Source: Arbacia lixula (Eukaryota > Echinodermata > Echinoidea > Arbacioida > Arbaciidae). From it: DNA of 64,000 bases. Positions within the stretch are counted from its first letter, which is position 1; every line of letters starts with the position of its first letter. Shown here in pieces: positions 6,001-64,000 of this stretch. A program made the translations under genes and the position numbers. The stretch spans positions 3,315,797-3,379,796 of the forward strand of contig OZ022591.1 in assembly GCA_963669155.1 (NCBI GenBank). The letters are read 5' to 3'. The notes under the pieces were generated by a model. The model was not told the origin of the DNA. It was given only the letters and a program-made list of their open reading frames with translations, and did not search any database.

Positions 6001-6905
6001 TCGGCAACTGAGAAGTACAAGTTTAACTTCACAGCTTATGGCCCTTCCTCCTCCATGCCTGCGAGCCTGTGCGTAAAACAAAAGGCAGATGGGTGAATCT
6101 ATAGACAAACAAATCCAGAACGTTTGGGTTGTTATCCATCATTACATTGAACGTGTTTGGGCTTGATTTTAGGAGGTCAAGATCTATGATTATCGATACA
6201 TATTTAGGGAAAATGTTTATGTGCTCGTACTCTCTTGATGATTCATGATGTATGAAAAACAACGCTACACCCTACACTTCATGAAAGTGAAATGCATCCA
6301 TCTATTCGTGCTACTCCTCAAAAACACCCTTTAGGTGAGATAACGACATGCATTACTCTTCCTACTAATTTGATTGCGGCTGGCTAATTCATTCATCCTG
6401 GACTCGTTTTCAGAATGATAAAACTGGTAAAGATGCGACTAACTCAAACATTATTAGCTCAGTTTAGGAACAAGGTCTTCAAGTAATCCCGATATCCCTT
6501 GTTTGATAATGAACTTGTAAGTAACGTCGCCCTGATCTACTTTCAAATGATGATGCAGCCAAAGAAGGCCCCTTTCCCTTAAAGCAATGATATCAAAGGC
6601 GACGACAATGGCATGTACGACGGATATGACGATTGCAAGAAAGCCATCTGAATTTGGGTGCATTGACGATAGTGAAATTCGAAAGTAGAGTACAATTGCT
6701 CATTCGATTTCGCTAATTGCTGATTTGTCATCTCTGTACTTTGCCCATCTCTTACCAGGGGAAATATGGGGAGTATCATTATATTTAGGTATGACACTTA
6801 ATGCTCATTCCATATTATACCTATCCCACATCTACTCCCAGGATGCATTCATTCAAACCAGTTGCTTATCGCTTCTTTTCTCTATGTTTCCATTCATGCA
6901 TCTAG
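1..6905. other. Left flank, no recognised gene
   Basis: No open frame here resembles a known protein or continues through plausible splice sites. The stretch should contain the missing first coding exon of the carotenoid oxygenase (about 25-30 residues, ending in phase 1 before base 6906), unless that exon lies further left. I checked several GT donors (around 2370, 3710, 4898, 6316 and 6426) and none gave a family-like N-terminus in the right phase. A purine-rich tract lies at about 3730-3762. I see no TIR elements like those right of 22 kb. Confidence 0.5.
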
Positions 6906-9900
6906 GTACGCTCCCGAGCTGGCTCGTCGGATCTCTCGTCCGCATAGGACCTGGTCTGTTCGAGGTCGGAGCTACCGAGTACAAGCATTGGTTTGACGGG
7001 CTCGCGCTCATGCACAAATTCGCCATCAGGAGCGGTAAGGTCACCTACCAGAACCGGTTCCTGCGGAGCAACGCGTACAAGAAAGCCATGAAGTACAACA
7101 AGATCATCTTATCGGAGTTTGGCACCGTCGGGGTCCCCGACCCGTGCAAAAACGTCCTCGAACGGTTCGCGACGCATTTTCTACCGCTTAATGTTACAGA
7201 CAATAATTTAATAAACGTGTATCAACTAGGAGACGAGGTCTACTCAGCAACGGAGACTCACACACCAAGAAAGATCAACCTCAAAGACCTCAGTACAGAA
7301 GACCAGACGGTAGGTGGCGCTGTGACGTGGCCGTTCGTTCACATTTGAACCACCGGCAAAATGTGGTCCGACTTATAATTAGAAAATGAAGCACGATTTA
7401 GCGGGATTGAACCTTTCCTCTTGAATGAAAATGGTATCAGCATGTTCACTAATCTTGTTAAATGATCTCGTTATACCCAATCTTGCACACTCCCCATTTC
7501 CTCTGGGTTTAAGTGCGGCACGTAGTTGTAATTGATTTATCTGCTCCTTCAAGCTACGTGTGACACTGAGAATGTTTTATGGAACTGCAAATTCCATGTG
7601 GCTTTTAGATCCCTCCAAGCATTATTTACAGCCAGAAATATACAGATATTCAGATGGTTGCTATTTGGATGATTATTTGAATCAACTTTCACGTTTTCGT
7701 ATAGTAACTTGACACACAATGCACTTCTGCCGTATGTAACTTCGTGTACTGGCAATACATTTCTGAATGTGATCCTCAAGATGAAACAAACTATTTAGTG
7801 ATTTGAGAACAATAACCCACAATGAGAGGCAGACGCCATGCTAGGAGAATTTGTGGTTCCCGCGTGTTTTTGCCTAATGTTATTACAAACCCAACTCACC
7901 ATGACACGTGCTCCCTTCGTCACCCCTATGCCCATGCTCACCACAGATCGACCTGCTCAAGACGTTCGGTATGATGACTGCCTCCGCCCACGCCCAGACC
8001 GACCGAGACGGCTGCTCTTACAACATGGGGACTTCCTACCTCACTGGCTGCTTCTACAACATCATCAAGTTCTTTCCCAAATCTCACAAAGGTAAGGCTG
8101 CTGCCCACACTTCCTGGGTTCCTTGAGAAACGAAAGAGAGGAAACCGATGCTCAGACCTAGTCCGTAAAACAGCACGATATCATTACACAAATATCAACA
8201 TCTCCTTTTCAGAGTTTCATTTTTAGTTCGAGATGTAGCTCGGTGTGTATCAATACTGTCTATTCCACTGTTGTTTCACTAAAGGATGGGGGGGGGGGGG
8301 GAGTATGTTTTTTTTTTTTTTTTGGCATACTGACTCTTTTTGGAAAGGATGTTAAATCACTAAACTGCTGCGAAATAAGCTTCAGGATTCAACGAAATCC
8401 AAATGGAAAGTCGTATCTTGGACAGTTCTATCCTTACACCTGTGATCTTAGTATACCTTAAAGACAAACGAAAGGTAGCGTGAGGCCCACGATAACGGCA
8501 TGTCGTCCATAAAGCGATTCTCTATCCACTTAACCTCTATCATCTTCTCACCCTAAAATAGACCTTCCAACCAGCAATATTATTAGTACCTTACACGTAC
8601 ATGCTGTACTTCGTGTCTGTTACAATCTTCATTTCACTTCTTGAACAAACGCCTTGCTTTTTACACTGTTTCTTTTCAACAAGGTGTCTGTGGGCATGAC
8701 ATAATATTGTGTAAATTATTAAAGTGAGTGCTCTTCATAATATCTGTAATTTTGATCTGTACTTGGAGAAAACTCGTTGCAGGACGTTGATTGTTGTGAG
8801 TACTATCGAATGGGTAGGGCTCCCATGAATTTTGCGTAGGAGGAAGTTGGCAGATAACATGATATAAAACGTAAACACCTGTTCTACCGTTGTCTTTCCC
8901 TCTATCATTGTTTTACATCCTATCAAACAAACGGTCTTATTCGATTGATTACAAAATATGGTTATCCTGAAATCGGATGGTGACTGCCCTTCAGGAATTA
9001 GTCGCTATCTCTCCCGAGCTATCCAGGGCCTCAATTGAGTGGGCGAGAGGAGCAGGAAGCACTCCTACCTCATGTCGGGGGAACCCCCTTCCTGAAGTAG
9101 TTTCGGTGATGACCAATGCTTCAGCTGATACCCTACCAGGCACGCCAGGGGGCCAAGTAGCTAGGATGGGAATACCCCCTTCCAATCATCGCCTCATCCC
9201 CAACCCCCTCCTCCATAATCTGACCGTCAGCCACGTGTGTGACCTATTAACATATCCCAGGGGCAGGAAACGCAACGCTCGTCAACATGTGTAGGGCTTG
9301 TTGTTACGTAATCAAGCCGATATGGCGTCCCGAATGAGGATGATTACTGATGACGATATAATGTGTCCGATTATTTTAAGACCCCGATATGTGCACGTGT
9401 CATATGGCTGGCTACAGCGTCGCCCACACTGTCTCGTCGATACGATGATTAAGAAAAACAACATTTTTGAACTGTCTCCCTTCAATTGTGAATGACGACG
9501 CGATGTCAATTGAAAGAGAGACAGATCATTATGACTTATCTCTTCAAACCAGCTGACCAGTAAGCATAAGCCTGGTTTTCATGACGAGTAATGATTCAAG
9601 TAGAAAGCCTGTATGCACAACTACAGTAACAGGTACTTAAATGATGTAATGGAAAGGGCATTGATAGTTTTCAACTCCAATTATCAATGATTGTACAACT
9701 CTATTTTTCATAGCGGAACATTCTGAATATTTTTGTCATCATGGTCATGATTGCTTTGACCGCATGTTTTCTTATTTCAGACTTGAATACATCTACAAAA
9801 CATTCCGTATTGCGTTATCTTTTTTTACAGAATCTTCATCGGTCTCATCGGAGATGACAAGTTCTTCCACCGACAGTAGCAGTCCGGCAATGTCCGCAAA

Positions 9901-12541
9901 GCTTCTGTGTAGCATTCGCGCCAGGAACCCACTGAAACCCTCGTACTTTCACAGCTTCGGCATGACCGATAACTACATCGTGTTCTCCGAACAGACGCTT
10001 TACATCAACGTCGCCAAGCTCGCCGCGTCCCAGATGTTGGGGAAACCCGTGTCATCATGCTTCGAGTTTGACCACGACGGCTCGACGCTCTTTCACCTAG
10101 TCGACAAGCAGACGGGCGAGATCATGAACAGGAGATACCACGCCGGTCCGCTGTTCGGCATGCACGTCATCAACTCGTACGAGGACGACGGACACGTGGT
10201 CTATGATATCTGCTCGTATGACGACGACGAACTCTTAAAGAAGTTTTACCTCGATTATCTAAGGCACGGCGATCAGAATGGAAAGAGGCATTTTCCCATC
10301 ACGCAAGTTAGGAGATACGTCATCCCTCTGAGGATAGACGAGGTTAGTCAAACGCATCGTATCTTCTTATTCCTGTACTCTTTCTCGTTCCCTATCAGCA
10401 CCTATTGTTATCGTATCTTCGTCATTAGAAAGGCTTCTTCTCCGTCTATTTTCCTTACCCCCTTTCTTATCCTACCTAACTAACTCTGTATTCTTCTTCC
10501 TCTTCTCTTCATTCACTCCTTCGTCCCTGTTTTATTCTGCTCCGTCACCCGCTTCAATGGCATACTTGTGTAACTCTATGTCTGCCATAGACACCGTGCT
10601 CTGTACAACTATGCTTAATACTCGTGCATAAACACATCTATTCAGTGGCGCAATGATCAGTTAGCCAGTTCAGCTTCTTTATACATCGTTCATTGGCAAC
10701 GCTGTTGTCTTCTTTCTCGAATCATAGCTCAAAGAGCCTCCATGAAGATAGACCAATCTACAAGGACGTGTCTAGGACGTTTTAGCTTTCCTAGGACACA
10801 TTCCTTGTGCCATCTTTCTTTGAAGTTATTCGGAAACGGTTTAGAGATCTTCTCCGGGAAGCAAAGCAATGGGAATGAATTAGACGCATTGAATAATTAA
10901 TGAAGACGATAACTTAAAGAGAACAGGACAATATCCAACCACATCGCGTAGAACCAGACAATTCAACGCTCCAATGCCATATCCAATGTGTTTCCGGTGA
11001 TATCGATCGCCCTGCCCGGAATCTATAGAAGGGTGTGGTAACACTATCAACTTCCAGGTGACTTGTCACCATTAGGCGCAAGGGGCTTAGGAGTAATTAG
11101 ATTACAGTAAGGAAGTTGCGAAGTTTTATATTCTTGGATAATTGTTTAAAATTGCGATCGAGTTTGAGTAAACGGCACGATCAAGACATTGTGTAGGGTC
11201 GACCGTTTTCATTAATGTACATAAAAAATAGCTTTCATGAAAAAAACTACAGGATAGAACTCTCGACATTGGTTTGATAGTGCAGGATTGTATACGACAA
11301 TTGTGTGCTGATCATAGAGGTCAAATGAAATAAAGCATGTATATACCTTTCGATTGAGAGGCAAGGCTGAGTTTTCACGGACCGTCATCTTCGTCTGAAT
11401 CTATATAGTATTCCTTCTCATTACTCGTCTCGTGTTTCCTCTCACAGCACTTTACTCGCCAGAGGGCCTTTCGCAATCGATGCATTCCAATTGGTGATCA
11501 ATGACTAGTGCCAATCGATTAGATGTTTTGTCGGATACCTAGGGATTACCGGAACAATCCAAAAAATCTGTAATTACTGGAACGATTATGCTTCCGTGAC
11601 ACTGTCTGGACTAATCACATGGGAACGCTATTTTTTTTGGAAGATGATAACGGAGGTTCAAACGAGACCAGACAGATTGATCGATCGAGACAAGAGCGTG
11701 ACAGACTCTTTTCTTTTCAAACTTCTAGGGTAGCTACACTTCTTCGAATAAACATGTGCAAAGTATTTCGACTTACGAAAGAAAAGTGGTTCATGATCCG
11801 TGATATCACTTTACGCCTTTCTCGCGTGCAACTTAAGTGTAATCTATAGGTCATCATGTATGGCATACATAAGCCTACATAGAAGATAAGTGTATGTACA
11901 TAAGAGTGACGAATCAATACTCAACCGCCAAAATGCCCTTAATTATAGGATGGAATTCAGGCATTGCAGAACCGGTCCTTATTGGATAATAAGTATGCCA
12001 TGCCGCTGAGGGAATCAATTACCCCTTGCAGTTGATCCTTTATGTTTATAATCGCTAAATTCATGGTTCAGACCGCCTTCGAGTATTCGAGTATAGACTC
12101 CCTCACGCGTTGGATAATCAATAGATTGTTTTTTAACCCGCATACCACGATGAATGTGCGGTATTTGAGGGGAGGAAGGGGCGGGGGTTACTAGGGTACA
12201 ACTAACAAGCAAGGCCATGAGGACCCCATCCTCTTTCTACTCATCTCTTTCAAGTCTTTGATGTTGGAGAAGAGCCGAATTTCAAACAATAAGGTGTAAT
12301 TTTGTACGGATTATGAATTAAAAATCATTATTCTCTTGTTTGTGCGTTCTGTTTTAGAACACGCCCGTCGGTACGAATCTGGTCACACTTAACTATACCT
12401 CGGCATCGGCACAACTCCTCCCCGACGGGTCGGTGGAACTCACCTATGAAGAGGCGTCAGATATTGGTGAGTCCTCCATCTGTCCATTCGCGTAGCAAGT
12501 TCTTTGATTCTGGTAGAAAATGAGAGGAAAGTTTGTGAAAT

Positions 12542-41500: not shown

Positions 41501-44500
41501 CAAAAACAATAAAGTACATAAGAATTAAAATGAAGTTTTTTTGACGACCAATTGTTAAAAATATTATAACCGATATACAAGCCAAAAGTTAGACTCTAAA
41601 TGTTTTTATTTAGTGTTTTGCATAGTTTATTAATTAAAATTAGCAATTAACAATTTTGAAAAATATATAACAAAATAATCTTGTAAATTATGACACAGGT
41701 ATCGTGCGTGCCAAATTTTGTCGCAATCGCACGACCAATGGCCGAGACCCTTAAATGTGCATTGTCATCCTGTGTAATTGTTATCATTATGAACATCATG
41801 GAATCTAATCTAATCTGATCCCATCAGACCATCTTTCAAGTATTTCAGCTGGCACACTGCTCTGATCATCATGCTGTTTATCATCACTGTTATTATTATT
41901 ATCACTATGCTCAGTACTGAAATCTCCATCCATCTAAGTGCCATAGACCATCGTGGAGTGCCACAACTCTCTGTTCCATGTCATGTTTAACAGCCCCTTG
42001 ATCTGCTAACCACTCAGGAGGGCTGTTTACCCTAGTAATGCTCCATTCTTTTCCTTTAAAGGGCATATACTGTACTGGGAAGGCAAAAAAGCCTTCAAAA
42101 TGTAATTGTTAGCAATCTTCTTGCCAATGGTCTTAAATTCATGTATTGCCTATTTTAGAAACTTGCTGAAAGTTATTTGCCCTCACGTGATCTATATTTG
42201 GAGTAATGAGTGATTAAATCACAAATCCTCAAAATGTTCGGGCCGAACATTTTGAGGATTTAATCATTAATCATTAATTACTCCATATGTGGATCATTGG
42301 AGGGCAAATAAAATTTCAGCAAGCTTCTAAAATTGGCAATACATGAATTCAAGACCATTGGCAAGAAGATTGCTCACGAGCACCTTTTGAAAGCTTTTTT
42401 GCCTTCCCAGTACAGTATATGCCCTTTAACAGATTTTCGTCAAACCTTCACTAATATTTTTTTTTTACATGTGTCTCCTTATATTGAAAACAAAATAATT
42501 TCAGGGTGAACTATCCCTTTAATATATTCTAATCTTATCTTCTCCTATCCCATCAGACCGTCTTTCAAGTACTTCAGCTGGCACACGGCCCTGTTGGGCA
42601 TGGTTGGCTGCATCGTCATGCTGTTCTTGATCGAGACCATCTGGGCCTTCGCAGCCATCGCTCTCTTCATCTTCCTACTCATTGTCGTCATCGTGTGGGG
42701 GCCTGAGAACGAGTGGGGCTACGTCACCCAGGCTCTCATCTTCCACCAGGTATGGGGGAAGCTTGGGGGTGCTTCTCCCAAATGCCGACTTAGCAGAAAT
42801 GTTGTCCCAAGTCTAGATTTTCTCCTGAGTAATAGTCCAGAATCTCTCATAACTTTCTTCCAACATGAGAGGTTATCGACATGCCCACTGGCTGACTCAC
42901 AATAGGTTAAAACAGGGTGTCTCCTTCAAATACTCTATCTTTCCTTGCTCATAATTTTATTGAGATTATGCAAATGAGCAAGTTAGGAAGATATGTAGTC
43001 CAGAATGCATATACGGAAAGAATCTGGAGAATGTTTTGAAGGATATTTTGGAGGGCCACCCACTCCTAAGTCCTTCACAACATTCGCAAACATATGAGCT
43101 GCAATCATCTCAGATAGGATGTGAAAAAGGAATATGTCAAGTTCTGTCTATATGTCCATTTGTCCAATCACATTTGTCTATCTCTCCTTGTATCCATCCA
43201 TCCATTGATCTATCCATCTATCTACATGTATTTGTCTTGAAAGCAATTATCTATCCATCCGTCTATATATATATATATATATATATCTTTGTCTATAAAG
43301 CTCTTTAATCGCCCATCTACATGTCGAGATCTTTCAGCAGGACATGAGGAAACAAACATATCAAGTTCTGTCTATCTGTCTGTCCATTCATCCAATCCCA
43401 TTTGTCTATCTCTCCTAGTATCCATCCATCCATTGATCTATCCATCTATCTATCTACTTATCTATATGTCTATATAGCTGTTTATTCACCCATCTGTATA
43501 GCTGTTTATTCACCCATCTATATAGCTGTTTATTCACCCATCTATATAGCTGTTTATTCACCCATTTATATAGCTGTTTATTCACCCATCTATATAGCTG
43601 TTTATTCACCCATCTATATAGCTGTTTATTCACCCATTTATATAGCTGTTTATTCACCCATCTATATAGCTGTTTATTCACCCATCTATATAGCTGTTTA
43701 TTCACCCATCTATATAGCTGTTTATTCACCCATTTATATAGCTGTTTATTCACCCATCTATATAGCTGTTTATTCACCCATCTATATAGCTGTTTATTCA
43801 CCCATTTATATAGCTGTTTATTCACCCATCTATATAGCTGTTTATTCACCCATCTATATAGCTGTTTATTCACCCATCTATATAGCTGTTTATTCACCCA
43901 TCTATATAGCTGTTTATTCACCCATCTATATATCTTTCTATCTGACTAATCAATCAGGTTCGGAAGTATCTTCTCCTGCTGGATGTGAAGAAGCAGCACG
44001 TCAAGTTCTGGCGGCCACAGATGCTGCTCCTTGTCTCCAACCCCCGCGCCTCCGCTAACCTCATCCGCTTCGTCAACGACATGAAGAAGAGCGGCCTCTA
44101 CGTGCTGGGCCACGTCAAGACGGGTTTATTCGACGAGTGTCCCTCCGACCCCGTGCAGCGGGAGTACCCCGCCTGGCTGTACTTGGTAGAGTCCCTCAAG
44201 GTCAAGGCCTTTGTGGAGCTCACGTTAGCTCCGACCGTGCGGGAGGGCGTGGCACACCTTATACGCATCTCAGGCCTGGGCGGTGAGTTATACACTGATT
44301 GTTTGTGTGACGATGTGTGTACTATAACTTCATTACAATTGAATACTCGGAATATAATCCTTCTTAGAATATTGTGTACTTGTTATATTTGTTTGTTATT
44401 GAATATCTTGTACCTGAATTTATTTAGAGTTATTTTAGTGGGCTTCATGCAATCTAGCTTTTTCTCTTCCTCATTGTATAAAGGGTATCAATTTAAACAG

Positions 44501-45368
44501 TAGTCCCTCTGTCATTTTGTGCCCACCAGGTATGAAACCAAACACTGTGATCATGGGTTTCTATGACGATAGCACCCCCCAGAATTCCCTGGAGTTAAGC
44601 CGGCCCGACAAGCCGACCAAGCGGCTGCGCTTCAACACAGACCCCCGGGAGGAGGAGGAGATGGGTAACGTGCTGACCCAGTTTCCTAAGCTGCGGTCTG
44701 GCAACGAGTCCAAGGCGCTGTCGCCAGACCAGTACGTCCTCATGATCCTGGACGTGGTGCGTCTCCGAAAGAACATCTGCCTGGCGCGCCACTTCTCCCT
44801 GCTGGACCGAGAGGCCGTGCTCAGCAGCCCGCGGGACAAATTCATCGATGTCTGGCCGATCAACTTCTTGAAACCTGAGCTGGCTGGGTATCTTGATACC
44901 ACTTGTATCTTTCTGCTGCAGCTGTCGTGCGTCTTGCACATGGTGTCCAAGTGGAACCGGCACACGCGGCTCCGTGTCTTCCTGTGCGTCGACTCGGACT
45001 ACCAGGCGACGACCAAGAAGAAAGCAAAGCTGAATAAGTTCCTCCATGACCTACGCATCCACGCGGAGATTGTCACGGTGCCCTGGAACCATATCACGTC
45101 TCTCAACTCGTACCAGATGGATACGCCGCATGGGGATGCCGCGCCGAGCCTCGTCGTGTCCGTATCGGAGGAGTACCTACTCGCACTGAACCAAATGGTA
45201 CGGGACTACACATCCTCGACTGCGACAGTCTTCTGCTATCTCCCGTTACCCCCTGCAGACCCACAATATCACATGACCTACCTGCATCATCTTGACCTAC
45301 TTACGCGTGACCTTCCTCCGACCGTTTTGGTGCACGGCTTCAACGAAGTTACCTCCACTGTACTATGA
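23557..45368 (+). CDS. SLC12A9: SLC12A9-like cation-chloride cotransporter family member
   Basis: Polytopic membrane transporter of the SLC12 branch of the APC superfamily. Human SLC12A9 has been tied to lysosomal ion and ammonium handling; the substrate here is inferred only by family. Coding exons: 23557-23845, 24561-24695, 30390-30524, 31278-31577, 32216-32323, 36583-36694, 38220-38377, 39984-40069, 40602-40726, 42557-42749, 43958-44282, 44530-45368. All junctions are GT-AG and phase-consistent, giving 934 residues; human SLC12A9 is similar in length. The N-tail carries ENTPLL; TM1 is about residues 74-96. APC-type [15 protein letters not shown] spans exons 2-3. [11 protein letters not shown], the hallmark SLC12 loop, spans exons 5-6. 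A luminal/extracellular loop has sequons at N268, N272 and N288. The soluble C-domain runs from about 548, with [33 protein letters not shown] and DVWPINFL, and ends in [16 protein letters not shown]12A9 subtype is favoured over NKCC/KCC by these C-terminal motifs. Confidence 0.95.
25914..26309. mobile_element. AGGGATAGT-type foldback element, copy 1
   Basis: Left end AGGGATAGTCCACCGTGAAA and a diverged mirror-image right end ending near GGGATGGACTGT. Facing internal segments include ATGGTTTGATGAAAA and its counterpart TTTCTATCAAAACTCCA. Related pieces lie at 36850-36970 and 42430-42518. Non-coding; lies in intron 2 of the SLC12A9-like gene. Confidence 0.7.
27619..27983. mobile_element. TTAA-flanked foldback MITE, family A copy 1
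   Basis: A 365-bp near-perfect inverted repeat starting AGGGAGTATACTGCACTGGG and ending CCCAGTACAGTATACTCCCT, flanked by TTAA at 27615-27618 and 27984-27987. The arms meet near 27800 around the palindromic core TGTTCGGCCCGAACA. TTAA target duplication is typical of piggyBac-related elements; the ends differ from the classical CCY terminus, so superfamily is inferred. No coding capacity. Confidence 0.93.
28079..28597. mobile_element. TTAA-flanked MITE, family B copy 1
   Basis: A 519-bp element with imperfect TIRs (AGATTGTCCGTCCCTTTT on the left, AAAAGGGACGGGCTGTCT on the right), flanked by TTAA at 28075-28078 and 28598-28601. Contains a short palindrome, CTTTTTTCGTACTACGAAAA. A second copy of nearly the same length lies at 32384-32904. 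Non-coding. Confidence 0.93.
29556..29720. mobile_element. GGGCCC-ended foldback MITE, copy 2
   Basis: Starts GGGCCCCTTTGCATAAAACT and ends AGTTTTGTGCAACAGGGCCC, with internal facing ACCATTAATGGTA motifs, the same plan as 22698-22872. Located in intron 2 of the SLC12A9-like gene. Confidence 0.8.
29753..29839. mobile_element. Small GGGCCC foldback element, distinct family
   Basis: About 87 bp, from GGGCCCTGTCTTATAAAGAG to GAATTCTTGAAGCCAGGGCCC-like sequence, with facing GTGATTGATC and GATCAATCGC inside. A larger diverged relative appears at 57697-57846. Confidence 0.65.
29858..30350. mobile_element. TA-flanked TIR element beside exon 3 acceptor
   Basis: About 493 bp with 21-bp perfect TIRs (GGGGCGTCTTCATTAGCCCG plus A), flanked by TA at 29856-29857 and 30351-30352. 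Further inner copies of GCGTCTTCATTAGC and its complement near 29938 and 30150 make a compound foldback. GC-richer than its surroundings. It stops 39 bases before coding exon 3 (30390). TA flanks suggest a mariner-like or similar TA-targeting element; no transposase frame seen. Confidence 0.85.
30573..30645 (+). mobile_element. tRNA-like SINE head
   Basis: Has an A-box-like TGGTTTAGTGGTGAGAGC and a B-box-like GGTTCAAACCC at tRNA spacing, but no good seven-base acceptor stem. A tRNA-derived SINE fragment is more likely than a working tRNA gene. It lies about 50 bases after the donor of exon 3. Confidence 0.55.
30640..30775. mobile_element. GGGCCC foldback MITE, diverged copy 3
   Basis: Facing ends GTTGCATAGATTTTCAATTA and TAATTGAAAATCTTGGTG with central ACCATCAATGGTAACTTCC, recognisably the 29556-29720 family but more decayed. 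Lies in intron 3. Confidence 0.6.
31008..31112 (-). mobile_element. tRNA-derived SINE, minus orientation
   Basis: On the minus strand an A-box-like TAGCTTGCGTGGTTAAGTCG is followed by the B box GGTTCAAATCC and then TGGTTCCAAGATTTCTTTCT. The tail matches a fragment at 57522-57568, so it is a dispersed repeat and not a tRNA gene. Confidence 0.65.
31866..32124. repeat. Dispersed repeat ending in AATTTGACTACCACACAG-type sequence
   Basis: Starts near ATGCCTTAGCCATGAAGTGG and ends with GACTGTGTGGTAGTCAAATT. The end recurs in the opposite orientation at 60811-60850 (GCAATTTGACTGCCACGCAG, then ATATGCCTCCGC). Element type unknown. Located in intron 4. Confidence 0.5.
32384..32904. mobile_element. TTAA-flanked MITE, family B copy 2
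   Basis: A 521-bp copy closely matching 28079-28597 along its whole length, flanked by TTAA at 32380-32383 and 32905-32908. It starts 60 bases after the donor of exon 5, in the same orientation as copy 1. Confidence 0.93.
33909..35140. repeat. Composite inverted repeat in intron 5
   Basis: The sequence around AGTTGTCTTGACAACATGCTCATATGAC (34095-34125) and TTCGGTACTCTA (34138) recurs inverted at 34908-34977 (AGAGTACCGAAGTATAACG, then GACAACTGGTTCTAAACA) and direct at 35095-35138. A decayed foldback element with internal rearrangement is inferred. Confidence 0.55.
34330..34745 (+). repeat. Dispersed repeat, inverted partner of 38385-38835
   Basis: Shares GGCAATTTTGC, AGCTGCATATA, CTGTCCAAAACACC and GTGAGC-type blocks, in order and on opposite strand, with 38385-38835 in intron 7. 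Diverged; no coding frame recognised. Confidence 0.55.
36850..36970. mobile_element. AGGGATAGT-type foldback element, short copy
   Basis: About 120 bp from AGGGATAGTTCACTTGGAAG to TTTCAGGGTGAACTATCC, an internally deleted relative of 25914-26309. Lies in intron 6 of the SLC12A9-like gene, about 155 bases after the exon 6 donor. Confidence 0.75.
38385..38835 (-). repeat. Dispersed repeat, inverted partner of 34330-34745
   Basis: Reverse-strand relative of the intron 5 repeat; begins just after the donor of exon 7. Block order matches the partner, with substitutions and small indels. Confidence 0.55.
39387..40018 (+). repeat. About 164-bp tandem array running into coding exon 8
   Basis: Landmark ATGC[GA]CAGCA recurs at 39434, 39569, 39731 and 39895. 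Landmark ACTCTTTCCCACAG recurs at 39641, 39806 and, as the true splice site, 39970, giving a period of 164-165 bp in the last three units. The last unit overlaps the 3' splice site and about the first 35 bases of exon 8 (39984-40069). Confidence 0.9.
41800..41890 (+). pseudogene. Decayed duplicate of exon 10 with pseudo-acceptor
   Basis: ATCCCATCAG followed by ACCATCTTTCAAGTATTTCA and CTGGCACACTGCTCTGATCA copies the acceptor and first codons of real exon 10 (42557 onward), encoding [12 protein letters not shown]. It then loses six codons relative to the real exon and runs into ATC repeats and a stop, with no good donor. Part of the intron upstream is also alike. A partial exon duplication now degenerate is inferred. 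Confidence 0.8.
42060..42425. mobile_element. TTAA-flanked foldback MITE, family A copy 2
   Basis: A 366-bp inverted repeat, AGGGCATATACTGTACTGGG to CCCAGTACAGTATATGCCCT, flanked by TTAA at 42056-42059 and 42426-42429, with the same palindromic core GTTCGGGCCGAAC. It lies between the exon 10 duplicate and exon 10. Confidence 0.92.
42430..42518. mobile_element. Right-end fragment of AGGGATAGT-type element
   Basis: Ends TTTCAGGGTGAACTATCCCT followed by TTAA (42519-42522), matching the right end of 36850-36970. It abuts the right TTAA of the family A copy at 42060-42425. Only the right half is present. Confidence 0.65.
43170..43470. repeat. CTAT/CCAT-type microsatellite block with (TA)n
   Basis: Diverged tetranucleotide repeats with a (TA)n run near 43264-43286, leading into the minisatellite that follows. 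Also holds two related copies of TATCAAGTTCTGTCTAT-type sequence about 220 bp apart. Confidence 0.85.
43473..43935 (+). repeat. 24-bp minisatellite, about 19 units, next to exon 11
   Basis: Unit TATAGCTGTTTATTCACCCA plus TCTA, nearly invariant, with TCTA changed to TTTA in four regularly placed units. The open frames over it on both strands arise because 24 is divisible by three and are not proteins. The array ends about 22 bases before exon 11 at 43958, leaving only a short stretch with CTGACTAAT and CAATCAG for splicing. Confidence 0.95.
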
Positions 45369-50870: not shown

Positions 50871-53146
50871 TCATCTTCAATGTTATTATTGCCAGGCTAA
50901 AGTCTACTAGCACAGACTTAATTGAGCCACTTTCGCGATACATGTGTCTGTAGGAGAGTGTGTCCAGCCCAGCTACAGTACTTGACCTATTGTAGTCTCA
51001 TGATTCAGACTCTGCTTTGTGCCCTGTGGGACAGCCATGGGTAACTGCAAGTACAAGAATGTTTTCTATGTCGAGAGGGTTCGACTGTAATGATGACGCT
51101 AATGTGAAGTCCATGGTGTCGGTGTGAATTCATCAGGGATTTTTTTATGTGAATTTTTAAGACCGGGTAACCCTTTTGCAGGTCAAAAAAAGCAAATGAG
51201 GTAAAAACCACAGAAAGAAAGAACTTCCTTTATGATATTAGAACCGGAAAGTGACTTGAAGCAGAATTACATTATCACAGATTTCATGGAGGTTTTTGGA
51301 TGGGTCTTCTGAAACCTACCGGTTCTTGTAACACAGAGACCAAAGACCAGTGTCCACACCAGCAATGCATGCATAGATGCATGCGATGCCCGCTGACACA
51401 TGCATTGCGCACTGACGGGGCATGAATGTAGACTAAGGTTGCTACGTTTCAAGTTCACCAAATGATAATTTTTGGCTTTTTCTGAAAAGCTCCGCAAAGC
51501 TTTGACTGTGAATCTTTTTAGACGATATCGCTCAGGAATTCTGCTGATTCAAACCAAGTTTCATCACTTTTATTTTTTAAAGGGGCTTCCTTGTCTAATA
51601 ATTGCAGTACATGTATAACAGACCTGTGATGATATGTAAAATGCATAATCATGGCTCACTAGAGACGAACAGAACAGAAAAGTTGGATGTACATGTACCA
51701 AAAGGAAATGAATTATGCTAATCCAAGGATTTACAAATATTTTCATTTTCCTAACTCACCAAGACTTCATTCGCAGATAAAGATATATGAACTCTCTGTA
51801 CCTAACATGAGCCAATTTCCTCCTTGCATGACATGTACCATTAGAAACTGAATTTTATTGCCTCTTTCAGGTTTCTTCCACATCAGTGTTCTACATACTT
51901 ACATGTATCTACAATCCTGTTAATCAAATATAACAGACCCAGAGTAGATAACTAGCAAAGAGCCTTCAAGAATGACACATGGTTACCGTACAGTATAAAG
52001 GTGCAGTGCATTCGCTTCAGGACATCAAACTGGAAAAAAAATAAGTCTAATTTCAACTTACAATGAAATTTTAGGCATACACCCAGTAGTAAGGATGGCG
52101 TGCGCCATCCTGTAAATAAATGGGGAAAAAATACATTTGTTTCTATGTCTCCCTTTAATTCTACGTCTCATCATAATGATGTCATGGTCACATGACCATG
52201 GAAATGAGATGTCATGCTGCAGGTACCTGGTTACTGTTTAATATGTAGGGTATACATGACACACAACTAAAAACAGGTGATGCACCTGCCATTCAGTGGC
52301 AGAGGCATTTAACAATTGAGCCTCAAATATTGAAGTTACATAACCAGTACTCTATACACCATATATTCTATCCATGGTCTTAATTTTTTTGTGAATCAGG
52401 ACTTCTCGTCAATTTTCCAAATTGTTAAATTCATGATCGTGAAGTACTAGTACTATTGGCTATTATACTGTATCTGTGCTTGTGCATGTCGTTTACATAG
52501 TTTTGTGTGTTGTTAAATTCGGGAATAGCATCCGACTCGAGAAATTCGCGAGAAAAAAAAACACCGCGAAATATATGGCGTATACAGTACATGTATTTAA
52601 TTTGAAGAAAGCAATATGCTCTTTCTTTCTTTATATATATAATTTTTTTTCTCTCTCTCTCTCTAATAATACTGGCCAAGCCACTCCAATAACCTACTTC
52701 GTAATTGCAATTTGCGTCAATTTCACCGAAAACATAATTTGGGGTGTAAATGGACGAATGAGACATGGCATCATAAGATGTCCATTATTGTGAGGTCCTG
52801 ATGCCCTTCTCCAACCTCCCGCTTCCCGTGTTTCATTATGGCAAACCTGTTGGGTCCGTCCACATATTTGCGTTAGATCGCCCTCACTTGGTGGCTAGTA
52901 GCTACCTATTTGTTTGCTGTTCCAGGACGAGAATATGCACTAGCAGCAAACAGCAAATGTTGAGGCAATTTGTCCGCTCTGATGTGGTAGGATCCTGGGC
53001 GTCCCCATTACAACGGCAAATAGCTCCCGTATCAAGCTTTCTATACCCAGTCGATCAACGCCGCGGTCTGCCAGAACCGAAAGATGCCCTCTCGCTCCGA
53101 GATGATCTTCTCATACAGTATTTCCAGTCTCAGATCTACAAAGTTC

Positions 53147-56100
53147 TCATAGTTCCCTTGCAGCATCATAGCACTCGGCTTTCCACAATGCCTCCGCAAG
53201 TACCTTTCTGGTGCAACGCTGCCCATTCATCTCTAACCACAACATTAGAAGCTTAATGATCTGCTCAGTGCTGTTTTCATACCGATTCTCATATAGGAGA
53301 TTCTCAATACTGAGTTCACTTAACCTCAGACACCTTCCAAGTTGTTTGAGGTTTCCAATTGGAATGAGGTGGGCAATGTCCAGGAATTCATCACGTGAAA
53401 CTCGACCCGTTGATTCTGTATTCAATGGAAACATTAAGAAATAGGAGAGGAGGAAATGGATGGACAGAAGAACAGATAATGGAAAGTAAAGAGGACGAGA
53501 TTAGGAAGGACATGAAAAGGAAGATGAGAAGGAGGAAATTGAGAAGAACCGATCAAACTTTCAACATATTCTGTATCCTGTTTGTGAGGTAATTTAGTTT
53601 GTATGAGATGTTTATTTTTTTTTTTTTACTGCAGTACGATTTTAAGAAGTGATCAAAGTATAGTCGATATTTTACACTTATATCTATGAGATAAGATTTG
53701 TTGTAAATAAATATATTTTTTATATACATATATTCATCAATGCTAAATATGTTATAATGATATATATTCATCATTATCATTACATGTATTAGTGTTTATG
53801 GTAATTTAAGCAGTCACTTGCCAAAGATATTTTTGTTATTGCTGTACTAAAGAATTTAAGGAATCATTTAAGGACTAGCACTTGTGCTAACTTTGGATTC
53901 CCATTAACAACTTCATTATCAACCTTGACTTTTGTACAAAATTGTTCAAACATCACAATCATCACAAGCAACATGCATTATTTCTACATTCATTGTTAGA
54001 GTCTAGCCAGTTTTTGATTCTTACTGATATTTCTTTTGTGAAACACATGTTTTCTTCCTCTCTTTGTTAAATCAGTCATGTAAGTTTTTGTATTTCGATT
54101 GTTGTTTTTAATATATAAAATCATATAAAATTCAATTCAATAATTCTCATTCCTCTTTTGACTGAATGGGTGTTAACCTATTATTCAGGTTCAGAATATG
54201 TGGGAGTCACACTGCTCAGTATATGAGTAGAATAAAGAATGGGTTAAAAGCTCAAGGTTTATTACAGTAAGATGCCTTACGACTTAGCTGGGGTTTCTTG
54301 GGTTCCTGCTTGATTGATGAGTGACTATTGGACGGAGTGTGGCCGCTTGGCACTCGTGTCCCTCCATAAAAGTGATTTGTGACAGTTTTGTCTCCAATAT
54401 GGATGTTTCCCTTGAGTGACTTGACCGTCATCTCCATATCACCTGTTAAAGCAATAAAAAAACAAAAGCAAACACAAAATTCAAAAATTAATCTTTTCTT
54501 TTTTAATCTGCAGCAAAGATGCGAATGCTATTGTGATGAAAGATGGATATATACAAACACTGGTATGCCTATCCAGTGATAGAGCGCCCCCCCCCCCCCC
54601 CCTCGAGACAGCGAGGAGTCACAATGTAAGCAACGTGTTACGGTGAGGCGTATCTGGGTTACGGATATTTCACCAGAATTTTTTGCTGCTTATTATCCTC
54701 TGACCTGACCTACATTGTGTCGCCTCACAATAGTATCCCACAATAAGATACTTTCAGAAATGATAAAGATACTTTCAGAAATGTATAAAATTACGGGAAT
54801 GTTCTAGTGTTTTCATGTCATAAAAAAAGTAAATCCAGAGAACAGCAGACAGCATTGTCAGACTACATGGGTGCTATGAAAAATCCAGTCTGGATCATTC
54901 GCGCGATGCAAAGCATCATTGGCCAGGTACTGGCAGGAATCATACAGTTCATCAACATTACTTGAGAACAATTAGAGCTCCCACATATCATGATACTTTA
55001 CAATTATTAGTGATGGGGATAATTGCTGTAGCTAGGATGACGAGTGTGTGTAAGTTAGCCTGAACATGACTTTGCTGTAAGATTTCATGGTCTTGGAGCC
55101 TTGTACCTTTCTTGATGTAGATATCTTCACCAGAAGTACCACTGAGTGCTTGTTTTTTCTGCTTTTTCTTGTTACCTAGTAACAAAGAGAGGGAGAGAAA
55201 CAAATTAAGGGTGTGTGGTGGGGGGAGGGGGGCACGGAGAGAGCGAGAAGGAAGAAGAGAAATGGTGAAACAGTTATAGAGAGATAGATGGTTAGATAGA
55301 AAAATATAGACAAACTGATACATGAATAGAGATACAGAGTTGAGACAGAGGAAAATCAGAGGTATAGAAATAGAAATTTGGATAGATATATAGTAATATA
55401 TATATAAATATATATCAAAAAAGAAAGAAAGATAGGTAGATTGGTAGATATACATGTTTGGATTTAGAAAAAAACATGTGAATGAAGCAGGTGCATCACA
55501 AAACATACAGAGTTACAGTGAGACACAAAAATCAGAGATATAGAGGTAGATATGTGGATGGATGGAAAGATAAAAATTTACATAGATAGAGATAGAGATA
55601 TATAGATAGAGAGAGATAAATGGATTTATAAAGACACATTTGAATGAAACATACATAACAAAAGAAACAGAGTGACAGTGAAACAGAATCAAATCAGAGA
55701 TATAGAGATAGATGGTTGTGGCGGAGGCATACGAATAGGTGGAGAGATGGGTATATAATGAGAGAGAAAGCCACACAAAGAGATAGAGAGAGGTGTACAG
55801 AAAGAAACAAGGATTGCACACACTTTTGAGTGAAGCGCCATATCAAGGGAGTTTTTTGTTTTAATTACCAGCACCAGTTTTCTTTGTCGACTTCCTCTTG
55901 AAATGTATTTTGGCCTTTTTGAGCACATCGTTCCAGGGTTTCAGTGTGAGTTGTACAGGCTCCGCGACAGAACTACAAAGCTGTCTCATCTCAGCATCCA
56001 CAAACTTATCCATCAAGAGTTCGGGCAACTGCGGAGTGAGCTCCTGCAGCTCTGACAGGTGTTTCTCCTGGTTCACCCGTACAAGCAGCGTGAACTCACT

Positions 56101-59100
56101 ACCGCTCTCACTTTCTGGCAGGAAGATCTTGCACAGATTCAAGTGTTTCATCTCAAAAATACGTCGAAGAGGTATGCTTCCCGCCCACCATTCATGTCTT
56201 GTACACCGTTGAAGGAGCTGAGATATTTGGGAAAATTGGGGGCTCAAAGAGACATCTAGTGGCAGTGAAAGCGTGATGGTGAGACGGATATCTGGAAAGT
56301 CAAGGAAAGAGAGGATCATTTAATTCCATAAGGCCTGCTTTATCAGTAATGAGTATTACACATGAAGTTATAGCTGAGCCCTGACGTCCCATAACTACCA
56401 CAAAGTTCTACAATATAAGGGCTAGCCCAATCTAGACATTGAGAAAAAGAAAGTTGGGTTGTAGTTCTGCCCTGAGGTCCTATATCTACCATAAAGTTCC
56501 AGAATCTAAGGGCTAGCCCAATCTAGACATCTAGAGAAAAAGAAAGTTGGGTTGGAGTTCTGCCCAGAGGTCTTATAACCTACCACAAAGTTCTACAATC
56601 TAACGGTTACCCCAATCTAGACATTGAGAAAAAAAAGCTGGGTTAGAGTCCTGTTTTTAGGTGGGGAGGTCTTACCGTAGGAATCTCCACTGGGCGAAGA
56701 CTGGTCAAACACTACGGTGGTTTCCCTTTCCCGCTGTGCTGAGAGAGGGCGCTGTGCTGGAAGATGGCTTGGTAGCTGTTGTCCTGCAATCGAGAATGAA
56801 TTCTTATTCTGAGGATGACCATATGCAGATCAATTATAATGTGAAACACATAATACAACAAGGAGCCAAAGAAACACTAGCCAATGCCCATTGTATACTG
56901 AGTTCGCTACTTGCGTGATGGCTTTTCTCCATTCAGATACTGAGCAGCATGACTCCCGCACAATCTGCTGTGCAGACAATAACCAACAGGCTATGAATAA
57001 ACTCTACTCTCCCTTTTGGGCACAATCAAGCCACCCCTTTGGTCACTGCAGTTCTATGACATCCTAACTGGATCAGGGTTTACACAAAAGCACAAAAAAT
57101 CTAACAAGCAATGGGTCAAATAAAGAACAAAATACCAAAGAGAGGTTCTCCTTAGTTGAATGCGCACAAAATAATAGTTCATACACCTAAATATAGTACA
57201 TTAAAAAAAAAAGAAATCGGACTGCACAAAGTCAAGTTGTATTCCTATTCGCTTTTTCTCCCTTATGACTTACCACCCCTTCCTTCCCCTCCCCCCTCCC
57301 TTCCTGCCCCTCCCCCCCTCCCTCCCTCCCATCCCTCCACCCTCCTATCCCTCCATCCCTCACTCTCACCATGTAAAACTTGTTTCTACAGTGCACAAGT
57401 CCCATCACAACTAGTTATCTGTGAATTGAGTAGCTTTTGACCTTGCAGTGGTGTAGGGTAATTAGCCCAGCAAGATAGACATACAGACATGTTTTTTTTT
57501 CTTTTTCTTTTTTTGAGCCCATCTGGTTCCAAGATTTTTGTCTGACTTGTTTTTCATTCAATCACTGGTTGGGGCACGCTATCCTTACTACTGGGTGTAT
57601 GCCTAAAATTACTTTGTAAATTGAAATTAACACAGAAAGCCCTTTCACTAAAATCTAGATTTTTCATTGTTCTGAAGTCCTTAAAGCAGCTAGACTACCA
57701 GGAAACCAGGATCCTATCTTCTATAGAATTATGATTGATCACAAGATGCCTTGCAATTTCAATCAGTCACAACTCTGTATTTAGATATAGGGCTCAGACT
57801 CGCGATCACTTCAAATAGATTGTAACTCTTTACCAGATGGGGCCCAGCTTTTTGAAATAAAGATCACAGTGTTTACATACTTTTTGATTGGTCAACCCCC
57901 ACTGCATACTCTGCCCCGGCCTGGTTCTCGTCCACAGGGATGGGCTGCCCACATTCCATCCCAGTGAAGTGGATGGGCCCCACACCTCCGTCGTCATGAG
58001 GACGGGCCCCTGCGCTGCTTGTTGAGGGCCTGGCCCCGTTCTCTGAAGACTTCAGGGAGCAGAACGTGCGTCCAGATGGATGAGGCCCACCCCCGTTAGT
58101 AGGTGTCGGTGTTAGAACTGCGAGCGAGACAGAGGTTTCCACAGGTGGAGTCACTCTTCCTCCGTTCAGCTCCCCAGATGGGGGGGCGGCATCACCCCCT
58201 CCTGTGAGAGGAAGAGGGTCGGCATCACCCCCTTTTGTGTGAGGAGGAGGGGTGTTCACTTCATCCCATTCGCTGAGACCATGCAGAGGCTGTGGTCGGC
58301 CACTATCGTTGATGGTCAAGTTCTCCACTTTTTGACCCAGCTGCCTCACATCTTGCTCGGCCACGCCAGACCCTCTCGGAGCATTCTGGGCAGAGAATGT
58401 TGATCAGATTTTGAGAAACACTTGATAAATAAACTAACTGATGATATCATCCTTGCTTTTGCTCTTACTACCCATAGAAACAAGATAGGTTGCAATCTTC
58501 CTCCTATCGAGAGTAACAGCAAAAACAAAGGTGATATAATTTACTGTCTCTTCCCGAAACATTCAAACTTTTTAATAAACTATTTCAAAATAAACTGACT
58601 TTAATCAAGTGGGAATCACTAGCTCTGAAGCATCACACTTACTTTGTTGTCAGAGTTTTCATTATAATGTGTGATCCCTGAAGTTTGCCAAGACATCTAG
58701 AATGGCCAAAAACACGCTTTTTGTATACATTTTGCAGCACTGATGATTTGAAAGAAACAAACATTGACACCGTGTGTACAAATTGTATTGATCTCTACTA
58801 TAGAACCATTTATGTTGAAAGGCAAAGAAGGGAAATCTGTCAAATGGCAAAGAAGAAGGACGTCTTGCAGATTGTGGACAATTTTGGAGACCTTGTAAAT
58901 TACATTCTGGCAGATGCTATCCTTGCTACTACTTCTTAAAATTAAAATTAGCCCAGAAAGCCCTTTCGTTAAATTCTTGCTGAAACCATTGTGTTTCTCC
59001 GGTCCACCTCCTTTATTTAATTGGGCATAAGGGTCCCAAAGAATCTCCATCGATTATCTCTACTGCTTCAGGTAAGGCTTTACGTTTACGGGTGTCAACC

Positions 59101-61968
59101 TTCACTTGGTGTATTTTACAAACTAACCTGTCCATGAAAGATCAGCAATGATTGACAATACATTGCTTCTTGCTCATCATACAAGCTTTCCAGTGACTGC
59201 TCGATCTCTGGTACACACAGAGTGAAAAAGGCATCGCTATTCGTTAATTAACAAATCTCAATCATGCTACAAATCCTTGATGATGAAAGACAGGGTGTCC
59301 CATTTGCAAAAGTCATGAAACGAGGCAGGAACCAGCATTATACCCTTACAATAACATGAATGAAAGCTCAGTCATACCTTCAAGAAAAGTGAAAAATAAT
59401 CTGTATGTTTGAAACACACCGGCCATTGTCTACATTCATAATTCTATTGTCCCTGTCAGTGCGTGATGCGCTCATTGAACACATGCACTGTGGAGCAGAT
59501 TGTTGCGGACCATAGTGCACAGCGGTCACCGGTCTCTCAGCCAAAGTTTATGAATGACCCGCCCAAAACCTCCTCAAAATCTAGCTTTCACTATATAAGT
59601 CAAGTTCCAGTTTTATTTTTGGGAACGAAGTTTTGATACTGTATCTTCTTTTATTTTCCGAGGTTTTGTATGGTTTTAACAAAATTGTATTATTTTAACC
59701 TGCAAAAGGGAAAGCATGTCTTTCAGTATAAATCAAAACCTATCAACCCAAATTTTGTTATCATCAAATTGAACTAGTAGCAGACATTAAACCCATACTT
59801 TTAGACGAGAAATCAAACAATGACAATTTATGCTCATAAAATGAATAAAAGGCATTTGGTTAAATCACAGAAGAAAATTAAAGTCTGGGGTGAGTGTTCT
59901 CCAAACAGCAGTTATAATCAATTCCTTTATTTCATTTTGCAACAACCAACAAAGCAAGTTTACCTTCACACCGGAATAGCAATACATTGCATCCCCTGAA
60001 ATGTTCCATTTGTAAATAACAACACCACATTCACATTGTGGATAGATATACCTTCAGAAAACATAATTAACATCTGTTTATGAATAACAGAATCGCAACA
60101 TCCACAGAAGACATTGGGTATACATGCAAAAATGTCTTGTTCTACATTACCTGTAGTTCTGGGACGGTCATCTGGAAAAAAGCTCAAACCCTTTGTCATC
60201 ATTTCCATCATCTTTTGGGGGGTTTCCCTGGGCACCCTATCCATCGGTGGGGTACACTCTTCATCGCATTTGAACACCATTATCATGGATTCTTTGTGAT
60301 CTAGTTTCAAAGACAATTTGGAAGAAAATGAAAAACATTTTCCCAAAATAATCAGCAATACATCACTGTCAGGACCAGGAGTACTTGGTGTTTAAAATTT
60401 TTTTGGCTCTTTTAAAAAAGATTTTAAAAATGTTACAATTCAAATCAAGCTGGAATTTACACATTATACAGTCAAAGGAAGTCAATTTTTTTCATTAACT
60501 GTTATCCTTATAATAATCCTTTGAATATTAAATGAGATTTTCACTTTTGCAACAAATTTATGTGTATTACATAATCAATTCAGAACACATCATGCCCATT
60601 GTGCATCACACATGGTAACCCACTATGTCTTTTCTGCTTGTTGCATCATGCACTATTGATGAATCAGTAAAAGCAGTTGCTAGTGGATTGACAAGTGACA
60701 CAAACAGGCATTGTTTTACTATGAATTACATGTAATTATTTGATTTACTACAAAAGTGAAGAACTCATTAATTATTCAAAATATTATTTCAAGAACTAAT
60801 TGATAAACTAGAGCAATTTGACTGCCACGCAGTCAGTATATATGCCTCCGCTTCTTTAGTAGCGTCATTTGCTCTTCTAGGAAAATTTGTCGGTTTGGTT
60901 GACAATTAATGAACCCATTCAATTTCTAGTATTTGCACAACACATCTTTCTCTCTTTTTTTACCATGTTTTGCCAACTTTGGCAATGTTGATCTCTGACC
61001 TCTTAGTTCTTTGACTTCCAATCTCACCAGTCTATCTTGAAGGGAATTTGTACTGGGAAGGCAAAAAGCCTTCAAACCGGTGACCATGAGCAATCTTCTT
61101 CATAGCCTTCATTAATATTATTCCTATAAGAAGGTTCAAATGGTGCACATCAATCCAAATTTGATTCCCTGTGCTGTCCAGCTGCCAGCCCCTGTTGTGG
61201 ACTTAAGGCAAAACGCACATACACAAAGCCATGAAGCACAGAAATAAACAGTTTCAATAATGCAACAATAAATATAAACAAAAAATTATCAACCCCCTTA
61301 AGGACAATCTGGGAACCATTTATTCATGGTTGGACATAATAAAATTTTTATTGAGTTGAAAATCACAGAGAAAAACAATTTGAAATAAAGAGATGGACAC
61401 ACACACACACACACAAACACACAACATAAGCCAAACCATAGGAAGATGTATGCAAATATTATGCGTACATTTTAAGCAATAAATCAATTACCAATGGTAA
61501 CCCCATAGCTTCTCCGAGGTTTATCCGCCTCGCATCAACTTATAGGTTCAATGGGTATTCCACCAAAGAAAAATGCATCATGAGATACAGGTGAATGTAA
61601 AAAAAAATGTCTGGTTCCTGGTTCGGATCAGAAACCAGAAAACAATTAAGAAACATAAAGAAAATTGTTGGTTCCTTATTTAAATTTCTTCTCAAATGTG
61701 TCTTTTACTGAGAAACAATGATTCTGAGCTGAACTATGGAGGGAATAAAGTCGAGATGAATGTTTTGAGAACTGTTCATGAACTAACTAGAAATGTCTTC
61801 TAGAAATTATTTGGTCAAACTTGCACTGTTCGATTTTTTTAGGACAGGGTAGAACAATTTGAGAACTACATTGATGTGATCCAGGCTTAACTTGTTACCA
61901 TGGAGTCAATTCACTTACGTGCATACGGATGGATTCCCGTCAAAAATTCATACACTGTCATCGAAAAG
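53147..61968 (-). CDS. RIPK1-like kinase with RHIM-like motif and death domain (5' part outside window)
   Basis: Coding exons in transcript order: 61968-61919, 60300-60151, 59207-59128, 58385-57881, 56783-56676, 56291-55869, 55175-55107, 54442-54281, 53415-53147. All have AG/GT borders and compatible phases, giving 604 visible residues plus stop. Residues about 1-66 are a kinase C-lobe end: FSMTVYEFLTGIHPY (helix F region) and MTKGLSFFPDDRPRTT with the conserved Arg of subdomain XI. Then come a helical stretch (67-93), a Pro/Gly-rich linker (94-261), a segment of alternating strands and helices (298-438, unrecognised), a Lys-rich stretch, a RHIM-like NIHIGDKTV (474-482) and a C-terminal death domain (about 521-604) with LGRCLRLSELSIENL and MLWLEMNG. 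RIPK1 has kinase, RHIM and death domain in this order and acts in TNF-family receptor and necrosis/NF-kB signalling; that role is inferred. IRAK/Pelle is unlikely because its death domain is N-terminal; DAPK is unlikely because no ankyrin repeats are seen. Catalytic-loop residues are not visible, so kinase activity is unknown. Confidence 0.85.
54360..54407 (-). other. RHIM-like motif in the death-domain kinase
   Basis: Encodes NIHIGDKTVTNHFYGG. The core I-H-I-G fits the RHIM tetrad pattern [IV]-[QH]-[IVL]-G; RIPK1 has IQIG, and the fly cryptic RHIMs include IHVG. RHIMs form amyloid-like assemblies between partners. Assignment rests on this short motif plus its place just before a death domain, so it is an inference. 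Confidence 0.55.
55380..55790. repeat. GATA-type microsatellite block in death-domain kinase intron
   Basis: Diverged GATA, AGAG and ATATAT repeats, including two roughly 180-bp stretches with the same order of CAGAGATATAGAG and AAACATAC blocks. Lies between exons 56291-55869 and 55175-55107. Confidence 0.8.
57270..57362. repeat. CCCTCC-rich polypyrimidine tract
   Basis: Nearly pure C/T on the plus strand with CCCTCC and CCATCCCT motifs. Lies in the intron between 58385-57881 and 56783-56676 of the minus-strand gene. The short plus-strand Pro/Ser-rich frame across it is not credible. Confidence 0.85.
57522..57568 (+). mobile_element. SINE tail fragment
   Basis: TGGTTCCAAGATTTTTGTCT followed by GACTTGTTTTTCATT matches the tail of the tRNA-derived repeat at 31008-31112. 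The tRNA-like head is absent. Confidence 0.55.
57697..57846. mobile_element. Decayed GGGCCC/GATTGATC foldback element
   Basis: Contains ATGATTGATCACAAG, CAATCAGTCACAACTCTG and GATGGGGCCCAG arranged as inverted segments, resembling 29753-29839. The ends are degraded. Confidence 0.45.
60811..60850. repeat. Fragment of repeat also at 31866-32124
   Basis: GCAATTTGACTGCCACGCAG and the following ATATGCCTCCGC are the inverted counterpart of the end of 31866-32124. Confidence 0.45.
61040..61105. mobile_element. Family A MITE, left-end fragment
   Basis: AGGGAATTTGTACTGGGAAG, then GCAAAAAGCCTTCAAACCGG and GAGCAATCTTCTT, match the first 70 or so bases of the family A elements. The rest is absent. Confidence 0.75.
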
Positions 61969-63748: not shown

Positions 63749-64000
63749 ACACTAGAGGCGGAATAAGCCAGAATGCCGTCGGAATGAAAATTCTTGGCAC
63801 ATTCCTGGATATTTGAAGTGCATTCTGAGTGCATTCCAATCATTCGGGCCCATTCTTGTGTCCGGCCCGAATGTTTTGCTCATGCTCAAAACTTAATATG
63901 AGGTGCATTCGAACTGGAAAAATATCAAAACGCATTCTATGTGCAGTCCAACAGCACTCTGACTGCATTCCAAATATTCTGATGACATTTCAACGACATT
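63749..64000. repeat. GCATTC-rich repeat cut by window end
   Basis: From about 63749 (GTCACACTAGAGGCGGAATA) the motif GCATTC or CATTCC recurs every 10-30 bases, with an inner near-palindrome ATTCGGGCCCATTCTTGTG / GGCCCGAATG near 63842-63870. Looks like the left part of a short dispersed element; its right end is outside the window. Confidence 0.5.

Follow-up and report, generated by a model that had tools for sequence, protein, structure and literature searches.

A RIPK-group kinase gene with a death domain and an additional module in the echinoderm Arbacia lixula

The window, a 64,000-nucleotide stretch of Arbacia lixula DNA, contains a gene encoding a RIPK-group kinase and a death domain in a RIPK1-like build, with an extra, probably alpha/beta module between them; we assign this reading a probability of about 0.7. 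By its sequence, the gene is classed as a RIPK-group kinase with a death domain and not as a strict RIPK1: the RHIM tetrad is absent, and the death domain scores nearer to that of TRADD. A preliminary description had labelled it a RIPK1-type gene of an invertebrate. The source is indeed an echinoderm, and the kinase group, the death domain and the domain order agree with that label, but the lack of the strict RHIM tetrad and the lean of the death domain toward TRADD do not. The 15,740-base contig C590 of the assembly is mitochondrial (COX1 by PF00115, its other genes named by eye). Its COX1 is open under codes 9 and 5, and code 9, that of echinoderms, is preferred since AAA and ATA codons occupy expected Asn and Ile sites. 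ND1 and ND2 share the COX1 strand, an arrangement matching sea urchins or sea cucumbers; a starfish source, for which this block is typically inverted, was set aside, leaving an echinoderm that is probably an echinoid. Searches of the assembly (607 Mb, 590 contigs) indicate that the gene is single-copy, the best matches elsewhere in the genome reaching 59 bits and 34% identity for the kinase and E=0.02 for the death domain.

Gene model and kinase domain

The gene lies on the minus strand, and nine of its exons fall within positions 53147–61968, with GT-AG inner borders and a frame that is kept at each junction, which confirms the nine phase-consistent exons proposed earlier. Since the window cuts the gene, exons 1–3, with the rest of the kinase, fall beyond position 64000. 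In about 28 kb of DNA examined past this edge, exon 1 (67476–67729 in extended window coordinates; C16:3383272–3383525), exon 2 (65978–66284; C16:3381774–3382080) and exon 3 (64330–64469; C16:3380126–3380265), all on the minus strand, complete the kinase and supply the ATG. The full predicted model comprises 12 exons and 838 residues, and proceeds from a short N-terminal tail through the kinase, a Pro/Gly-rich linker, a 141-residue segment, a RHIM-like site and the death domain to the stop codon. Within the window, exon 4 (61919–61968) encodes part of the kinase C-lobe (FSMTVYEFLTGIHPYA), and exon 5 (60151–60300), which lies inside the PF07714 match of the joined kinase, encodes the end of that domain (DDRPRTT). 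The short post-kinase linker of exon 6 (59128–59207) is without homology, the Pro/Gly-rich and probably disordered linker of exon 7 (57881–58385) gives no Pfam match at E≤1, and exon 8 (56676–56783) continues the linker. Exon 9 (55869–56291) encodes the 141-residue segment, exon 10 (55107–55175) a lysine-rich linker, exon 11 (54281–54442) the RHIM-like site, and exon 12 (53147–53415) the death domain with the stop codon.

The splice borders were picked by eye with the reading frames known beforehand, so the phase agreement constitutes modest evidence. Codon use ranked the coding frame best among the three sense frames in 10 of the 12 exons when stop codons were penalised, a count that is biased because the exons had been chosen open. 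With stops ignored, the coding frame was best in six of the 12 (exons 1, 2, 9, 10, 11 and 12; four expected) and was not favoured in exons 3–8; in exons 7 and 8 it was not best under either scheme. This pattern, a model drawn from genomic sequence and exons 6–8 that hold no homology to tie the two halves together are all compatible with two neighbouring genes wrongly joined, one for a RIPK-like kinase and another for an adaptor that carries the module and the death domain. However, the exon 5 donor is in phase with exon 6 and all later junctions are in phase, no stop codon closes the kinase half, and the combined domain order is the same as in RIPK1; we regard such a misjoining as quite improbable. 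The in-phase exons and the three upstream exons that finish the kinase support the coherent single gene that had been proposed.

Other features of the window were recorded alongside this model. Plus-strand exons of a carotenoid oxygenase/RPE65-type gene are located at 6689–10480 (PF03055, E=1.3e-30 and 1.2e-27), and plus-strand exons of an SLC12-type transporter at 42510–45365 (PF03522, E=1.3e-10; PF00324 just below the cut-off). The latter adjoin a long tandem repeat at ~43348–44055 that is open in several frames. A 30-base stretch, noticed by eye, occurs in inverted orientation at 52067–52096 and 57581–57610, one copy lying within an intron of the RIPK-like gene, and is probably a dispersed repeat. 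Scans of the window for tRNAs and Rfam families returned nothing.

The kinase domain spans residues ~52–310 and contains a glycine loop (GGGSFGDV) and the motifs VAVK, HRDLKAEN, DIGLA and PPE; its catalytic residues (in VAVK, HRDLKAEN and DIG) are intact. The joined kinase matches PF07714 (E=4.4e-42) and PF00069 (E=7.7e-42). When the PDB was searched with phmmer, one EGFR entry ranked first (105 bits, with no single stretch passing), followed by RAF (93 bits) and RIPK1 (90 bits). Against a set of 17 human kinases, of which the RIPK3 sequence was verified, phmmer gave 93.1 bits for RAF1, 92.0 for BRAF, 89.4 for RIPK4, 86.7 for RIPK1, 86.5 for RIPK3 and 85.2 for RIPK2. A best match to RIPK1, named in the preliminary description as potential support, is not borne out: these scores are approximately equal, with RAF slightly ahead of the RIPKs, and the phylogeny gives no RIPK1-specific placement. 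ML trees with RAF, IRAK, MLK, TAK1, DAPK and TK as contrast groups joined the query to RIPK1–4 at 94/98 (18 rows, the query and the 17 human kinases) and at 93/96 (14 rows, four long rows having been dropped), in both cases just under the tool's starred level. A grouping with RAF1/BRAF was disfavoured, although the test stopped short of rejecting it (p-AU 0.060 and 0.074), and one with RIPK1 was not rejected (p-AU 0.196 and 0.417), while the best trees placed the query toward RIPK2/RIPK4 at 74/68 and 60/52. These comparisons, with the upstream exons included, support the assignment of the kinase to the RIPK1–4 group, as had been anticipated; its place inside the group is not fixed by the tree.

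A second, spliced RIPK-like kinase gene is present at C12 ~16,947,000–16,953,400, with one exon 42% identical to the kinase described here over 97 residues. It was considered as a module-carrying paralogue and rejected, as 50 kb contained no convincing module or death domain and the best module match was E=0.26.

Death domain and RHIM-like site

The C-terminal death domain recognised in the preliminary description stands, exon 12 scoring 26.9 bits against PF00531 over a cut-off of 22.6. Nine PDB sequences matched it at E≤1, of which a designed repeat protein came first, followed by FAS and TRADD, tied at E=0.0026 as the best natural matches. The RIPK1 death domain was absent from these nine, though present in the library searched. 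Direct comparison gave 22.3 bits with TRADD and 9.1 bits with RIPK1, and the TRADD and RIPK1 death domains score 31.5–31.9 bits with each other. The query is therefore farther from both than they are from one another, and its sequence leans toward TRADD over RIPK1. Elsewhere in the genome, C17 shows a local expansion: among 87 listed death-domain matches, a set that omits the gene's own, 29 fall within 18.0–21.0 Mb of this contig, and three of them lie 6 kb apart.

The RHIM-like motif is the weak point of the preliminary description. Exon 11 holds GNIHIGDKTVTNHFYGG, in which IHIG at residue 709, shortly before the death domain, differs by one residue from the tetrad V/I-Q-V/I-G; the strict tetrad is absent from all 838 residues. 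The looser pattern [IV][QHN][IVL]G has a single instance, at this site, but when the linker was shuffled 3000 times, 8% of the shuffled versions contained at least one, as did 14% of shuffled whole proteins. The Pfam RHIM model gave no match to exon 11 at E≤10, and even a fragment of human RIPK1, beginning partway into the model, stayed below the curated cut-off (E=0.013). Local alignment of the linker as a RHIM was rejected, as its scores were matched by 1519 (RIPK1), 1824 (RIPK3) and 1342 (TRADD, before the death domain) of 2000 shuffles, and the best alignments with all three fell off the IHIG site. The TRADD stretch, human residues ~199–214 (TFLFQGQPVVNRPLS) just before its death domain, appears faintly RHIM-like by eye; the linker aligns with it no better than shuffles do, by the count just given. 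A genome search for other proteins with the same site returned only the gene itself. With its sequence at chance level, the site is at most a weak candidate. Some natural one-residue RHIM variants are described in the accessible text of PMC12119088 as losing NF-kB activation while keeping cell death.

The 141-residue module

The extra segment claimed between the kinase and the RHIM-like site is present: it begins at residue 532 and its 141 residues correspond exactly to exon 9, where the coding frame is the best by codon use with stops ignored. It gave no match at E≤10 to PDB sequences or, as a whole or as its N-terminal half, to Pfam, and the C-terminal half matched only PaaX_C at E=0.14, which was taken as chance; membership of a known family was thus rejected. 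A repeated family was likewise rejected, as a search of the genome recovered, besides the module, a single match at E=4.2. That the segment "looks folded", as first described, agrees with two AlphaFold models that give a sandwich, but their mean pLDDT values are just 49.6 and 51.5. The first model runs strand-helix-strand-strand-helix-strand, and in the trimmed model strand 2 is nearly lost. Many ferredoxin-like proteins are among the structural matches of the models, and the absence of TRADD structures from the best 50 matches of each of three fold comparisons excludes nothing. The models indicate that the module is probably alpha/beta and suggest a ferredoxin/RRM-like sandwich, the fold class of TRADD-N.

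These observations raise the possibility, which we hold tentatively, that the module is a diverged TRADD-N and the protein a composite in which a TRADD-like half is carried on a RIPK kinase, could bind TRAF itself and would need no separate TRADD. The strand-helix order of the first model is the RRM-like order of TRADD-N. A Gly-Ser at module residues 64–65 stands just before the model strand at 66–73, and Kaur et al. (PMC8195603) locate a conserved small-Ser motif of TRADD-N in the turn between strands 2 and 3, just before strand 3. TRADD-N usually sits between two other domains (PMC8195603), as the module does here, and the adjoining death domain scores TRADD above RIPK1. Nonetheless, ferredoxin-like folds are commonplace and Gly-Ser turns common by chance, and the models that supply this topology are of low confidence.

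Genome scans with PF09034 and PF20694 found no separate TRADD, only a DEDD locus and two NCOA6 loci passing, and TRADD was not found in P. lividus, with the same cited for S. purpuratus, in the portion of PMC6394757 available; both results fit a composite. The DEDD-type TRADD-N exon (C12:5519018–5519383) is 76% identical to human DEDD over 122 residues and so is very slowly evolving. The two NCOA6 TRADD-N matches (C11:5165299 and C11:5188690) are near-equal and 23 kb apart, representing a tandem duplicate or an assembly artefact.

Every sequence comparison of the module with TRADD-N was null. Neither the module searches nor the genome scans gave it a match to PF20694, PF09034 or PF13820, and a four-sequence TRADD-N HMM did not match it. 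The hhalign probabilities were 0.19 with DEDD and 0.99 with TRADD, and 1.16 for the DEDD–TRADD control. HMM scores of the module were equalled by 815 of 2000 shuffles with the DEDD model and by 970 of 2000 with the TRADD model; in the controls, TRADD was beaten by 15 and DEDD by three of 2000. In global alignment with TRADD-N, shuffles placed the module at Z between -1.3 and 0.25. Control pairs of TRADD with urchin DEDD (Z 2.5–2.9) and DEDD with NCOA6 (2.3–3.2) passed, and those of TRADD with human DEDD (0.5–1.2) and with NCOA6 (-0.3) failed. The composite is kept as a rival, since the same test also misses certain accepted TRADD-N pairs.

The same null comparisons, together with a module that is without relatives in Pfam, the PDB or its own genome, are what a lineage-specific domain of another family would produce, whether ferredoxin-like or unrelated. 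Such a domain could serve as a partner-binding or autoinhibitory insert with no kinship to TRADD. Its position ahead of a TRADD-leaning death domain and the TRADD-N-like topology of the first model speak against this origin, for which we see an even chance.

Putative role and relation to known systems

The gene model, the kinase group and the death domain are read directly from the DNA, and the mode of working is proposed by analogy with RIPK1. Recruitment to a complex at a receptor or adaptor would run through the death domain, and clustering there would allow the kinase to act in trans. The linker and the module may hold downstream partners, for example TRAF-type ubiquitin ligases, and the IHIG stretch might conceivably extend the assembly like a RHIM. 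By analogy, the output could comprise regulated cell death alongside NF-kB/MAPK signalling, both in immunity; in human cells, NF-kB is reported to be activated by the C-terminal part of RIPK1 taken from species ranging from mammals to the zebra mussel (PMC12119088). From this likeness, we infer a possible relevance to the necrosome. A further reading, which we consider unlikely, is that the gene keeps an ancestral one-chain TNF-receptor signalling core made of a RIPK kinase, a TRADD-N, a RHIM and a TRADD-like death domain. If so, TRADD and RIPK1 of vertebrates would both descend from a single ancestral protein, and TRADD would be missing from echinoderms because the composite does its work.

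RIPK1 is known from vertebrates, with homologues also reported in lancelets and in spiralians, the zebra mussel among them (PMC12119088). The gene resembles it in an N-terminal RIPK-group kinase, a long linker and a RHIM-like site just before a C-terminal death domain. It differs in the extra 141-residue module, in IHIG in place of V/I-Q-V/I-G and in a death domain nearer to TRADD, and its kinase is not placed with RIPK1 in particular. With TRADD it shares a death domain, which scores higher with TRADD (22.3 bits) than with RIPK1, and possibly an alpha/beta module before it; TRADD, however, has no kinase, and none of the comparisons made linked the module's sequence to TRADD-N. The DEDD/DEDD2 and NCOA6 TRADD-N proteins, which represent the fold class proposed for the module, contain no kinase, and the genome's own DEDD and two NCOA6 copies are separate loci without a match to the module.

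Among echinoderms, a 2025 survey, in the sections available, records no RIPK1 combining kinase, RHIM and death domain (PMC12119088), and earlier echinoderm RIPK1 reports lack the death domain according to the introduction of PMC11507063. The Acanthaster planci RIPK1 is likewise an echinoderm RIPK1-type gene, said to be without a RHIM, and the part of its description consulted mentions no module (PMC11507063). The openly accessible literature searched did not describe a comparable module in any echinoderm RIPK. A single-copy echinoderm gene that joins a RIPK-group kinase, this module and a TRADD-leaning death domain may bear on how the TRADD–RIPK1 signalling pair arose and makes the origin of that pair testable. 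Since the RIPK-like genes of amphioxus also mix domains, carrying LRR, ZU5 and Zalpha in the text seen of PMC9573974, this novel echinoderm domain mix represents a variation of a sort already known.
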